Positions 3,438-31,870 of a stretch of 64,000 bases of DNA are shown piece by piece. This DNA comes from Niabella agricola (GTDB lineage: Bacteria > Bacteroidota > Bacteroidia > Chitinophagales > Chitinophagaceae): positions 3,286,001-3,350,000 of the forward strand of contig NZ_JAJHIZ010000003.1 of assembly GCF_021538615.1 (NCBI RefSeq), in the 5' to 3' direction. Under the pieces are notes generated by a model, which saw nothing but the letters and a program-made list of their open reading frames with translations, was not told the origin of the DNA and ran no database searches. A program made the translations under genes and the position numbers. The stretch's first letter is position 1; the number at the start of each line of letters is the position of its first letter.

Positions 3438-4082
3438 ATGAAAAACCCCAGAACCCCTGATCCCTTCCACACCCAATTCTGGTGCAATGAAGCCACCACC
3501 AATCCCTACCGCGCGTTTTACCTCTGCTTTAGCCATGCGGGTAAAATTCATGAGCTGCGCAAAATACTGCAGCATGTATTGCTGTTTATGGAACGGGAAC
3601 AGCCGCAAACGGATATACCCGTGTACCGCGTGTGCTGCGCCTTTATGGCCATTAACTCCGTAATAACCGCAGCGCATTATATTTATACCCATCCGGAGCC
3701 GGAACCCGTGGCCGGGCTGCCCGCCTACCTGTCCGTACTCAAAAGCAATCTGCCCTATGAACAAACCAGTTATACCTCCTACTTTATATCCGAAGCGGAA
3801 CATGCCAACCTGCAGGAAGTACTAAAAACATTTTTCGGTTACCAAAGCTGTGACGACTGGAACTCCGAACTGCACCTGGTACTGTACCATGCCCTCACCC
3901 ATTGGAGCCTGCCGGTGGTGGTGGACCTGTTCTCGCATTGGTTTTATCTCACTAAACTGCTGGAAGCGGCCTGGCTCTTGCGGCGTGGGAGGTGGAGTAG
4001 GTTGCGTGCTACATGCTGGTGCGTGTCTTCACGCACCGGGACGCGCTTGCGTCATCCCGACCGAATCCGCTATGGCGGATGA
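3438..4082 (+). CDS. Hypothetical protein whose 3' end runs into a dispersed repeat
   Basis: A 214-residue ORF, soluble, rich in aromatic residues and histidine, largely helical (HELRKILQHVLLFMERE; NLQEVLKTFFGYQ). I do not recognise the family with confidence. The last roughly 11 codons (RHPDRIRYGG) and the TGA stop are encoded by a copy of the dispersed palindromic repeat that begins at 4050, and the preceding 30 or so residues are arginine/cysteine-rich and unlike the rest. The original 3' end has therefore probably been replaced by repeat insertion. The body (residues about 1-180) looks like normal coding sequence. It follows the toxin-like gene by 224 bp, so an immunity role is possible but unsupported. 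Confidence 0.6.
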   Translation: MKNPRTPDPFHTQFWCNEATTNPYRAFYLCFSHAGKIHELRKILQHVLLFMEREQPQTDIPVYRVCCAFMAINSVITAAHYIYTHPEPEPVAGLPAYLSVLKSNLPYEQTSYTSYFISEAEHANLQEVLKTFFGYQSCDDWNSELHLVLYHALTHWSLPVVVDLFSHWFYLTKLLEAAWLLRRGRWSRLRATCWCVSSRTGTRLRHPDRIRYGG

Positions 4083-4146
4083 GTGGGGGGATCTGCCTCA
4101 GGTGGAAGAGATGCCTCGGCTCCACTTTGTTGCGCTCGGCATGACG
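4050..4146. repeat. Dispersed imperfect palindromic repeat, full copy
   Basis: The left arm starts CGTCATCCCGACCGAATCC and the right arm ends CGGCATGACGG; the two arms are imperfect reverse complements about a centre near GCCTCAGGTGGAAGAG. The left arm supplies the stop codon of the ORF at 3438. The sequence following it (about 4165-4198, containing TATAATCACAATCAGCAACC) recurs after copies at 6351 and 6498. Confidence 0.8.
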
Positions 4147-6195: not shown

Positions 6196-6691
6196 CGTCA
6201 TCCCGGTCGAATCCGCCGTGGCGGATGAACGGAGGGATCCGCTCCATGCGGAAGAGATGCCTCCACTCCGCTGCGCTGCGGTCGGCATGACGAAACCAAG
6301 GGAATAGACATTACAGCGGGATCCTGGTTGTAAAGCCAACACACACTTTTGTCATCCCGACCAAGTCCGCAGGACGCGCGGAGGGATCTGCCTCAGGCGG
6401 AAGAGATGCCTCGGCTCCACTTTGTTGCGCTCGGCATGACGGAACAAAGAGGAGAGGCTTTATCGTATAATCACAATCAGCAACCGGAGCCTTCTTCCGT
6501 CATCCCGACCGAATCAGCTGTGGCGGATGAGCGGAGGGATCTGCCTTAGGCGGAAGAGATGCCTCGGCTCCACTTTGTTGCGCTCGGCATGACGGAACAA
6601 AGAGGCTTTATCGTATAATCACAATCAGCAACCGGAGCCTTCTTCCGTCATCCCGACCGAATCCGCGGTGGCGGATGAGTGGAGGGATCTG
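6196..6691. repeat. Cluster of four dispersed palindromic repeats
   Basis: Copies lie at 6196-6292, 6351-6441 and 6498-6594 (full) and 6646-6691 (left half only). They are separated by two kinds of conserved spacer: one containing CCTGGTTGTAAAGCCAACAC (also at about 12345-12385) and one containing TATAATCACAATCAGCAACC (also after the copy at 4050). Spacer and repeat therefore move or duplicate together. No gene is present between 6181 and the ATG at 6844. Confidence 0.8.
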
Positions 6692-10398: not shown

Positions 10399-10765
10399 GC
10401 AGGAAGCTGTTTCAAAAGTCCGAAACCGTTATTTCGGTCCCGCCCTTGCAGGACGAAGCGGTCCCGATAGCTGCTATCGGGAGGAGCAATCTCATTACCT
10501 GGAAATTAGATACAGGAGATTTCCCAGCTTCACTATGTTACGCTGTTAATGACCAGTATTTTTATGATGTTGAAATCAACACTATATAGCTTCGTCATTT
10601 CGACCGGATACCGCGATAGCGGATGTGGAGAAATTTCTGTGAAAGTAGAGAATCTTTGGTTTCGCTGTGCTTCACCTCGGGTGACGGGAAAAAGTTGGCC
10701 ATTTCAAAGAACTTCATTCCCTTTATTTGGGCCTCAAAGTAACAGATTTTGAAACAGCTTCTTGC
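10399..10765. mobile_element. MITE-like composite element with 19-bp terminal inverted repeats
   Basis: The ends at 10399-10417 (GCAGGAAGCTGTTTCAAAA) and 10747-10765 are reverse complements with one mismatch. The 367-bp interior encodes nothing convincing, contains a CCCGATAG/CTATCGGG hairpin at 10463-10481, and carries a full copy of the dispersed palindromic repeat at 10593-10686. The structure resembles a non-autonomous element into which the repeat family has inserted, or a nested composite. No target-site duplication could be confirmed. Confidence 0.5.
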
Positions 10766-11918: not shown

Positions 11919-11967
11919 GATTGGGGCTTCGCCATTCGTCATCCCGGCCAAGCCGGCGTTCCGCGCT

Positions 11968-12434
11968 CGTCATCCCGACCAAGTCCGCAGGACGCGCGGA
12001 GGGATTTGCTTCCATTGCCGAAGAGATGCCTCCACTGCGGTCAGCATGACGAAACAAGGGGCATACGCATTATAGTCAGATCACAGTCGCAGTGACAACA
12101 CCTTCTTCCGTCATCCCGACCAAGTCCGCAGGACGCGCGGAGGGATCTGCTTCCATTACAGAGGAGATGCCTCCACTGCATCGGCATGACGAAACAAGGG
12201 GCATACGCATTATAGTCAGATCACAGTCGCAGTGACAACACCTTCTTCCGTCATCCCGACCAAGTCCGCAGGACGCATGGAGGGGTCTGCTTCCATTGCA
12301 GCAGAGATGCCTCCGCTGCATCGGCATGACGGAACAAAGGGAATACGCGTTACAGTGGAATCCTGGTTGCAAAGCCAACACACACTTTCGTCACCTCGAC
12401 CAAGTCCGCGCTAGCGGACGCATGGAGAGGTCTC
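11968..12434. repeat. Tandem array of palindromic repeats, left part
   Basis: Units start at 11968, 12109, 12249 and 12389, a period of 140-141 bp; a degenerate partial unit starts at 11937. Each unit is a roughly 90-bp imperfect palindrome (left arm CGTCATCCCGACCAAGTCC, right arm ending CGGCATGACG) plus a roughly 50-bp spacer, mostly of the class GGGGCATACGCATTATAGTC. The fourth unit has only its left arm (12389-12434, ending GGAGAGGTCTC), after which the GIY-YIG gene begins. Confidence 0.85.
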
Positions 12435-12449
12435 TTAATAAATAAATAT

Positions 12450-12457
12450 TATCTTTA
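12450..12457 (+). promoter_or_regulatory. Candidate -7 promoter box of the GIY-YIG gene
   Basis: TATCTTTA fits the Bacteroidota -7 consensus TAnnTTTG except for the last base, and lies 20 bp upstream of the ATG at 12478. It is inside the gene-bearing unit, so the gene appears to carry its own promoter. Confidence 0.4.
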
Positions 12458-12477
12458 GGGATAATAAGTGATAACCT

Positions 12478-12795
12478 ATGAAAAAAGGCGGCTTTGTTTA
12501 TATGATGACAAACCAGCACAAGACTGTTTTATATATCGGCGTAACCTCGAATCTTAAAGCAAGAGTATGGGAGCATGCGCATCATGCGGTGCCTGGTAGT
12601 TTTACGGATCGATACAAGGTTACTTTTTTGATCTATTATGAGTGGTTCGATACGATTGACAGCGCCATAGAACGGGAAAAGCAATTAAAATGTTGGTCAA
12701 GGAAAAAGAAGGAGTTTCTGATCCGGCTTAAAAATCCTGAGTGGCGGTTCCTGAATGAGGATGTTTATGATGAAATGTATAGCCTTTTGTATTAA
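12478..12795 (+). CDS. Single-domain GIY-YIG nuclease embedded in the palindromic repeat
   Basis: A 105-residue protein of the small GIY-YIG family. It has FVYMMT (GIY strand), VLYIGVTSNLKARVWEH (YIG strand and the conserved catalytic Arg followed by EH), and AIEREKQLKCWSR with the catalytic Glu on the downstream helix. There is no DNA-binding domain beyond the nuclease core. The gene lies 43 bp after a left half-arm (12389-12434) and 19 bp before a right half-arm (12815-12861) of the dispersed palindrome. It therefore occupies the position that the short central loop has in the other copies. Whether the protein acts on the repeats is inference. Confidence 0.9.
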   Translation: MKKGGFVYMMTNQHKTVLYIGVTSNLKARVWEHAHHAVPGSFTDRYKVTFLIYYEWFDTIDSAIEREKQLKCWSRKKKEFLIRLKNPEWRFLNEDVYDEMYSLLY

Positions 12796-12814
12796 GCGTT
12801 ACCAGGCTGTTATT

Positions 12815-13436
12815 GAGATTTCTCTGTTCGCTTCACGTTGTTACGCTCAGTCGAAATGACGAAAATAGAGACATGTACGATAGTTAAATTATAGTCGTAA
12901 CGGAAACACGCGCTTCCGTCATCCTGACCAAGTCCGCGTAGCGGATGTGCAAAGGGGTCTGCTTCCATTGCAGCAGAGATGCCTCCGCTGCGGTCGGCAT
13001 GACGAAACAAGGGGCATACGCATTATAGCCAGATCACAGTCGCAATGACAACACCTTCTTCCGTTATCCCGACCAAGTCCGCAGGACGCGCGGAGGGATC
13101 TGCTTCCATGCAAAGGAGATGCCTCAACTGCGGTCGGCATGACGAAACATGGGGGCATACGCATTATAGCCAGATCACAGTCGCAATGACAATACCTTCT
13201 TTCGTCATCTCGACTAAGTCCGCTGTGACGGACGCGCGGAGGGATCTGAATCCATGCAAAGGAGATGCCTCCGCTACGGTCGGCATGACGAAACATGGGG
13301 CATACGCATTATAGCCAGATCACAGTCGCAATGACAACACCTTCTTCCGTCATCCCGACCAAATCCGCGTTAGCGGATGCGCGGAGGGATCTGCTTCCAT
13401 TGCCGAAGAGATGCCTCCGCTGCGGTCGGCATGACG
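12815..13436. repeat. Tandem array of palindromic repeats, right part
   Basis: A right half-arm at 12815-12861 (GAGATTTCTC ... CAGTCGAAATGACG) directly follows the GIY-YIG gene. Full units then start at 12917, 13062, 13203 and 13348 (periods 145, 141, 145 bp), with spacers of the CATACGCATTATAGCCAGAT class. The last unit ends at 13436 and the sequence to 13568 is unique, with no gene. Confidence 0.85.
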
Positions 13437-13568
13437 AAAGAAAAGAAGCACCATTCATCTTTCCGGTAAAAGAACATTTAAAACGCTTTAACGCAGTTTT
13501 GGTACACTCCGTGCGAATAAATTTCAGCGGACCTGCCCGCCGCGCCATATTTGTATGAAACAAAAGGT

Positions 13569-13913
13569 ATGTTACCACAATGGCTTTGCAGGAGCATTCA
13601 TAATAACAGTCGCCGGAAGATCTATGAGCAGTTGCAATGGCAACGCTTCCTGCTGCGCACCGGTGTGCCTGCTACCATACGGGTGCTGGACCTGGTGGAG
13701 GAAACGGACCGTTTACCGGATTATATACAGCTGCGCCTGTGGGTGTTGCTCCGGCGAAAAGGTATGCTGACCTACCAGCATATGCAAACCCTGGTACGGA
13801 AAGAACAAATACCGGGTATCGGAGACCTGCTCCGGATCCGCTATTGTCCGGATGATCCTTCACGTATTCTTATCCTCAGCACCCTCCAACCAACGAAGGG
13901 CACTGTTTCATAA
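13569..13913 (+). CDS. Hypothetical protein, about 114 residues
   Basis: A small basic, helical protein starting MLPQWLCRSIH at the ATG at 13569; the longer frame from a TTG at 13551 is less likely. It is rich in Leu and Arg (KIYEQLQWQRFLL, YIQLRLWVLLRRK), with no signal peptide or membrane helix and no recognised family. Arginine-rich helices could suggest nucleic-acid or protein binding, but nothing specific is visible. It is followed 58 bp later by an acetyltransferase gene in the same direction, possibly cotranscribed. Confidence 0.55.
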   Translation: MLPQWLCRSIHNNSRRKIYEQLQWQRFLLRTGVPATIRVLDLVEETDRLPDYIQLRLWVLLRRKGMLTYQHMQTLVRKEQIPGIGDLLRIRYCPDDPSRILILSTLQPTKGTVS

Positions 13914-13971
13914 AAACCGTTGTTGCACATCATTGTTTTTTTAACGAGTATTGCAGTTTAAGAAAACAAGT

Positions 13972-31418: not shown

Positions 31419-31870
31419 CTATGATGGGGAATTTGCTGACTCATTTCCAAAACCATAAAGTTTTAGAAACTGATCAAACTCCTGCTGGAATGATTGTTTC
31501 GCATGATGTGCTTTTTGATTGCGGATATATTCAAAAACTTTGTCTTTTACAGACTCGCTTTTGGAAAGTGCCGCATAACCTGTTTGCCATGCAAATTTTC
31601 CGGGTATAAAATTTTGCTGGTTGATATAATGCGATGTGCTTCCCTTTACCTGTTTCACGACCTCCGTAATATTCTTACCCGGATTTAATAAAAAAAGACA
31701 ATGCAATGATCGGGCATACCATTAATGATCAACACGTAACAGCCAAGGTCTGTTAGCTGTTGTTTCATGAAACCATGTATCTCCGGTTCGGATTTGGGCA
31801 AAATAAGCGGTTGCCGCTCTTTCGTGCTCCATCTTGCATAGATTAATATTTTGTTGAAGGAGTGTGACAT
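31419..31870 (-). pseudogene. Frameshifted IS200-like (Y1) REP-associated transposase
   Basis: Two minus-strand pieces join into one Y1_Tnp protein: the first begins MSHSFNKILIYARWSTK and ends at the HUH motif, and the second begins MHCLFLL, the expected continuation. One base has been lost inside the codons for D-H-x-H (GATCATTGCATTG instead of a sequence encoding DHVHC), so the catalytic HUH histidine pair is split between frames. The catalytic Tyr region YIRNQKAHH is present. The length (about 145 residues when joined) fits single-domain RAYT-type transposases. Two perfect palindromes lie immediately upstream (31892-31969), as expected for a REP-RAYT unit. A sequencing indel cannot be excluded. 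Confidence 0.85.

Follow-up and report, generated by a model that had tools for sequence, protein, structure and literature searches.

Small GIY-YIG nuclease genes, such as the one encoded in the window (the whole 64,000-nucleotide stretch of Niabella agricola DNA that we analysed), stand in a real and specific partnership with CGTC REPs. This partnership is well supported by the evidence presented below, and the nuclease may be the missing enzyme partner of these repeats. In the reading that we favour, to which we give a probability of roughly 0.7, a REP-associated GIY-YIG nuclease recognises folded CGTC hairpins, each composed of a tag, a stem starting AT or AC and an inner tail, and acts on them in pairs; recognition, cleavage and mobilisation by the nuclease are steps that we infer from the sequence relationships. 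According to the available sections of the paper that defined them (PMC3733652, Di Nocera et al. 2013), CGTC REPs have a CGTC or TGTC tag and a stem that nearly always starts AT, with a stem length of 8-9 bp and a loop of 4-5 nt, and are arranged mostly as head-to-head dimers with the tags outside. Those sections name alpha-Proteobacteria, Neisseria (dRS3), Rickettsia, Bacteroidetes and others, from five phyla, as hosts, and put GTAG- and CGTC-type families at about 20 to thousands of units. They also describe the CGTC REPs as apparently without a dedicated transposase, linked to transposase genes in only a few, fortuitous cases, and leave open what moves them. No earlier report of a link between a GIY-YIG nuclease and REPs was found among the listed titles and abstract openings of the open-licence literature; in the part of PMC9465073 that was available, RayT and a GIY-YIG endonuclease are named as two genes of one clade, unlinked. 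A specific candidate enzyme with a recognition code would make the question of what moves the CGTC REPs approachable.

The preliminary description of this DNA had reported a GIY-YIG gene bracketed by two arms of a dispersed palindrome, and we located the gene and both arms as claimed. The features of the locus, in window coordinates, are these:

12478..12795, plus strand: GIY-YIG nuclease gene, 105 aa (ORF with PF01541 match)
12389..12434, plus strand: left arm, a CGTC-tagged REP-like hairpin with stem ACCTC/GAGGT; first half of a head-to-head dimer
12815..12861, minus strand: right arm, a CGTC-tagged REP-like hairpin with stem ATTTC/GAAAT (minus-strand reading); second half of the dimer
11968..12331, no strand: upstream array of complete palindromes (11968-12051, 12109-12191, 12249-12331)
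12917..13436, no strand: downstream array of complete palindromes (12917-13004, 13062-13144, 13203-13290, 13348-13436)
4050-4146, 6196-6292, 6350-6441, 6498-6594 and 10593-10686: palindromes of the window outside the array
about 11930..13915, no strand: segment without counterpart in three same-genus relatives (array, nuclease and an ORF at 13551-13913), from orthologous-site comparison

Besides the nuclease unit there are 12 clear, complete short-loop palindromes in the window, seven of them within 11968-13436, where the palindrome units around the nuclease gene measure 83-89 bp. Both arms of the nuclease unit start with CGTC, and their stems begin AC on the left and AT on the right (the left-arm stem was taken from the array listing of the stem test described below, the right-arm stem read by eye). 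The left arm, CGTC-ACCTC...GAGGT, is 80-90% identical to array arms over 21-45 nt, and the right arm, CGTC-ATTTC...GAAAT, is 73-74% identical to the right halves of complete palindromes L139 and L141. It had been claimed that the other copies carry the same arms around a short loop. The short loops and the left-arm type are indeed shared by the array units, but their right arms are of another type, GAGATGCC..GGCATGACG, and the right-arm type of the nuclease unit is found in complete palindromes elsewhere in the same genome (L139-L141). These three palindromes are themselves enclosed by a further inverted repeat resembling TGTCTCAAAA..TTTTGAGACA.

The description of the two arms as imperfect reverse complements was borne out in part. 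By eye, the outer boxes correspond (CGTCACCTCGACC vs CGTCATTTCGACT), as do the inner boxes (GGAGAGGTCTC vs GAGAAATCTC), but the middles do not, and cross-gene pairing is weak, with an inverted-repeat score of 13 that lies within the control range; when the 200-bp flanks of two copies of the window locus were shuffled, 22 and 26 of 300 shuffles reached the observed score. Each arm does, however, have its own stem, so that each is a tagged hairpin and the pair stands head to head. We conclude that the nuclease unit of the window is a head-to-head REP dimer with its tags outside, the gene as spacer and a mixed pair of arms; that this arrangement goes beyond chance is established by the homologues described below, not by the window copy alone.

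Across the homologues, arms mostly begin CGTC or TGTC. The complement of an arm's own stem was found in 610 of 1471 candidate arms, compared with 108 ± 9 expected when stems were dealt among the arms (the test required 5 bp only), and at least 40 stem spellings occur, ATTGC, ATTTC and ATGCT being the commonest; taken together, these two results point to compensatory change in the arms. Head-to-head dimers with the tags outside are seen in the complete palindromes of the window and of its genome, and at least one match to the complete-palindrome pattern is present in 105/296 genomes, the reversed control giving 0-2 matches per genome. The flanking repeats thus resemble CGTC REPs, as characterised in the available sections of PMC3733652, in their CGTC/TGTC tag, their mostly AT stem start and their head-to-head dimers with outward tags, and they differ from the published form in that the perfect stems of the Bacteroidota arms are shorter and their loops larger. 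The published stem and loop lengths fit some alpha-proteobacterial loci by eye (L227, L231); in the window arms the inner part is longer. The repeats are no new family; for the most part they agree with the CGTC REPs of the 2013 description.

The window ORF matches PF01541 (GIY-YIG) with 57.6 bits against a cut-off of 22.6, and this was the sole Pfam match at E<=0.001, the Y1 transposase domain PF01797 being absent. Residues Y8, Y19, G21, R29 and E67, which we take to be catalytic, are invariant in 32 aligned homologues. The predicted structure (pLDDT 90.5) finds its nearest folds in UPF0213 (Foldseek match 1zg2, E 3e-4), Slx1 (9e-3) and the UvrC N-domain (5e-2), with TM-scores of about 0.4-0.5 by query. 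Branched or damaged DNA is the substrate of Slx1 and UvrC, and GIY-YIG enzymes are also known as homing nucleases; their reaction is hydrolytic, and we know of no strand-joining step. Nor, to our knowledge, is framing by repeats a feature of UPF0213, Slx1 or the UvrC N-domain.

Homologues of the nuclease were found in 61/147 genomes of a family sample (E<=1e-6) and in 144/296 genomes of a class sample (E<=1e-12), with at most 16 first-look candidates scored per genome in the latter. Best-hit loci and 60 chosen stretches, which is not a random set, provided 122 distinct genes for a survey of flanks, 118 after four with short flanks were dropped. A CGTC-type motif within 400 bp was present on both sides of 85/118 homologues but of only 30/338 other ORFs from the same loci. 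The link between nuclease and repeats that had been proposed from a single locus is therefore both wide and specific, and the flanks of most of the homologous GIY-YIG genes examined do carry the arm motifs. The figure for the same-locus ORFs argues against a passive accumulation of repeats in gene-poor gaps. Among the 85 two-sided genes the nearest motifs are most commonly oriented as a head-to-head split (38), with 21 and 11 in the same direction and 15 pointing away, as between complete dimers. A motif was found on one side only in 17/118 homologues and on neither side, within 400 bp, in 16/118; arms of other spelling are missed by the motif, and four of the motif-free homologues (L057, L080, L117, L125) have cross-gene arms of another spelling that score 33-45. 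A motif-free test agrees with these counts, since 74/119 homologues, compared with 19/331 control ORFs, reach a cross-gene inverted-repeat score of at least 18.

As a control we took 40 Y1-transposase genes from genomes with at least five palindromes, four of which were dropped for short flanks. CGTC motifs were found on both sides in 0/36 and on one side in 1/36, and 19/36 have inverted repeats of other kinds with a score of at least 18. A RAYT can accordingly be set aside as the maker of the CGTC repeats: Y1 matches are present (four in the genome of the window), but none of the 36 tested is framed by CGTC motifs. Several Bacteroidota Y1 genes (L243-L276) have their own inverted repeats, in which GCTGAAGCC or GGGCTGAAG words are frequent, and a Y1-transposase-like fragment lies in the window at 31515-31706 on the minus strand (40 bits; G000:C3:3317515-3317706).

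A plasmid search with the window protein returned 33 records, including Novosphingobium aromaticivorans, Azospirillum lipoferum, Sinorhizobium meliloti and Neisseria gonorrhoeae, four hosts whose species or genera are named as carriers of CGTC repeats in the available text of PMC3733652. Cross-gene arms scoring at least 23 were seen at 14 of the 18 plasmid loci examined, a raw count without a control set of its own, and 11 of these 14 loci are alpha-proteobacterial; four near-identical Sphingobium loci (L231, L232, L235, L236), if counted once, reduce the figure to 11/15. Several plasmid loci, for example Shinella L227 and the four Sphingobium loci, are close to the published CGTC form. At L220-L222 the score is due to complete palindromes flanking the gene on both sides, and at L226, L228, L233 and L234 it is at most 13, the gene end of L233 being misassigned. 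We conclude that the pairing of nuclease and CGTC REP is general and recurs in alpha-proteobacterial plasmids. In Azospirillum lipoferum the element lies between sufB and sufC (L220:1201-1494; annotated), and from sequence reading the same appears to hold in Shinella sp. PSBB067 (L227:1195-1536), with another REP type.

Enzyme and hairpin are most strongly tied together by a match between nuclease subtype and hairpin stem within genomes. It can be seen that arm similarity tracks protein similarity overall (Mantel r 0.45, equalled in 0/2000 permutations; 0.40 without pairs above 0.6). A GGSR motif that follows a conserved Lys (the positions of one G and of R fixed, the first residue free) distinguishes genes in which ATTGC is the commonest stem: 32/38 GGSR genes compared with 3/101 others, with 21/160 genes that lacked an arm motif set aside, or 30/37 and 2/81 with a stricter tag. 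As this association was noticed post hoc and kinship of the hosts could be its cause, we examined the 11 genomes that hold both classes, where 27/29 genes were concordant and only 1/20,000 within-genome permutations did as well. A later set of 42 genes, which tests only the negative half of the association, contained no GGSR gene with arms; ATTGC was found in 1/32 of its other genes, and 10 had no motif. Because the type of nuclease matches the type of hairpin, the nuclease may be the missing partner of the CGTC REPs.

The repeats had also been expected to occur nearly always together with the nuclease. This holds for most genomes: the nuclease was found in 50/57 genomes with at least five palindromes and in 94/239 others (hand-tallied), with an odds ratio of 11 to 16 and p from 1e-11 to 2e-17. 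The exceptions are seven palindrome-rich genomes (G183, G391, G293, G161, G169, G390, G267) in which it was not found at E<=1e-12, among them G183, which has 203 complete palindromes and in which no match to a small GIY-YIG or to Y1 was found. A general search for the GIY-YIG family returned only long proteins in G183, G293, G161, G169 and G387, small proteins near tRNAs in G267 and G391, and a 146-aa frame in G390. Conversely, 26/95 genomes with a strong nuclease match had no palindrome of the scanned pattern, which misses some families. Y1 genes are likewise commoner in palindrome-rich genomes (51/57 with at least five palindromes, 150/239 of the others; hand count), so co-occurrence alone is indecisive, and it is adjacency and specificity that decide.

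The preliminary description had further taken the unit to be an autonomous element and the palindromes to be its internally deleted derivatives. Some arm-gene-arm units do look like discrete insertions. Two copies in genome G385 align arm to arm only (77%), as do pairs in G260 (70-74%), so that arm-to-arm DNA homology is present in 2/8 multi-copy genomes; the copies of G294 align over longer stretches, and those of the other five over part of the gene or not at all. At one G385 site the unit is present in 2/30 loci of the genus. The window segment is absent from three relatives, which have about 100 bp between two flanking genes where the genome of the window has about 2 kb; what they lack is the whole array and the extra ORF, more than arm-gene-arm. 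In a fourth relative (L146) the place is taken by another gene, with no palindrome that we could see, and in a fifth (L147) the repeat is palindrome-like but of a different kind, and no counterpart of the downstream gene is present. Gene-free sites at orthologous loci, for which abutting arms had been proposed as a check, exist, but at the G385 site most are without arms by eye and five have palindromes or half arms (L150, L153, L162, L167, L168). Such empty sites can also reflect loss rather than gain. By eye there was no target-site duplication at L086, L087, L149 or L152.

Against an autonomous element stand the low copy number (1-8 nuclease matches per genome, among the matches listed), a locus common to several species of the genus, low dN/dS and the frequent position of the gene between complete palindromes; together these make a pattern nearer to RAYT/REP than to transposon and MITE. 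Matches in the genus were found in 11/17 genomes at E<1e-40 and in 16/17 at E<=1e-5, the weaker ones perhaps being other subfamilies. Of 55 genus pairs, 23 allowed dN/dS to be calculated, and it was 0.02-0.16 in these; the window copy is in none of them, and its own pairs are all saturated at silent sites (dN 0.17-0.28). The nuclease protein is therefore constrained within the genus, with the window copy itself outside the measured pairs. Copies with internal stops occur in several genomes, and the second copy in the genome of the window, L003, is disrupted by one TGA and one TAA in frame. L003 is orthologous to L181/L182, which are intact in two relatives, and its protein identity to the window copy is only 64%, which makes it unlikely that the window copy descended from it.

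These results bear on several other accounts of the partnership. A classical autonomous transposon, with the arms as terminal inverted repeats, the nuclease as transposase and the palindromes as internally deleted MITEs, could account for the absence of the element at the same locus in relatives, for the arm-to-arm copies in two of eight genomes and for the copies with internal stops; we nonetheless regard it as distinctly unlikely in view of the low copy number and dN/dS, the locus common to several species of the genus, the absence of a visible target duplication at the four loci, the stems that each arm has of its own and the many genes that lie between complete palindromes. Somewhat more room must be left for a free-standing homing-type nuclease that cuts empty CGTC dimers and is copied into the spacer by repair, a parasite of the repeats rather than their maker. 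The nearest arms are oriented as a split dimer in 38/118 genes, nuclease and stem match as cognates, and homing nucleases of the GIY-YIG family such as I-TevI and Seg share the catalytic domain and are mobile or once mobile genes. Unlike these, however, the 105-aa protein has no intron that we could see and no separate DNA-binding domain that we could find, and is tied to dispersed hairpins rather than to one conserved gene target. Sites in relatives of the window and of G385 are by eye mostly armless, so that the arms either arrived together with the gene or disappeared together with it; this, the 15/85 two-sided genes whose motifs indicate a place between complete palindromes, and the arm-to-arm copies in G385 make homing an unlikely explanation, if one to be kept in mind.

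A host repair enzyme that resolves the cruciforms formed by the repeats, and so limits rather than spreads them, would be in keeping with the nearness of the fold to UPF0213, Slx1 and the UvrC N-domain, with the constraint on the protein in the genus and with its positive co-occurrence with the repeats, but would leave unexplained why the gene is framed by cognate repeats and why units come and go, and we consider it improbable. That the association is a coincidence, the repeats gathering in gene-poor gaps beside small dispensable genes and being spread by RAYTs, is scarcely credible: Y1 genes are indeed commoner in palindrome-rich genomes, but the controls speak strongly against it, since other ORFs of the same loci are seldom framed, none of the 36 Y1 genes is framed and 19 of them carry inverted repeats of another kind, and stem and nuclease match within genomes.

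If the nuclease acts on pairs of folded hairpins, as we favour, it would nick or cut extruded hairpins at their CGTC tags or close to them, either in a cruciform or on the lagging strand, and host repair or replication would convert the cut to a new copy. The product would usually be a short dimer, and occasionally one whose spacer is the gene. Since several species in the genus of the window often have the gene at a common locus, the nuclease there probably works chiefly in trans, on dispersed REPs, much as GTAG REPs are acted on by RAYTs. The likeness to the RAYT/REPtron system, as far as it is set out in the available parts of PMC3733652 and PMC6006769, extends to a low-copy enzyme gene, inverted REP flanks, a variable arrangement of REPs and covariation of enzyme and REP; the GIY-YIG nuclease is unrelated to RAYT, an HUH Y1 transposase, and the Y1 genes examined here are not framed by CGTC motifs. 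In a wider form of this reading, for and against which we see an even balance, the entire CGTC REP superfamily would have small GIY-YIG nucleases as its dedicated enzymes. It would then be a second REP system, evolved independently and present in several phyla: a hydrolytic nuclease some 100 residues long would read the stem, perhaps via a short motif (GGSR as opposed to xWxR), and would spread the repeats and, rarely, its own gene. Were the nuclease to mobilise REPs, its units of about 400-500 bp would constitute a mobile system built on a lone GIY-YIG enzyme and containing neither a reverse transcriptase nor a recombinase.

Other small GIY-YIG genes adjoin tRNA genes, with partial tRNA copies by the ORF as judged by eye, at the following loci:

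L001 (G000:C2:66618-66821): tRNA-Pro at L001:1743-1817
L004 (G000:C3:581895-582089): three tRNA-Met-like copies within L004:1167-1461, two with an unreadable anticodon
L202 and L210 (both in G267): tRNA-Ser and tRNA-Met; the neighbours are tRNAs, not CGTC arms

Judged by their sequence, these genes resemble elements that copy a portion of the tRNA they target.
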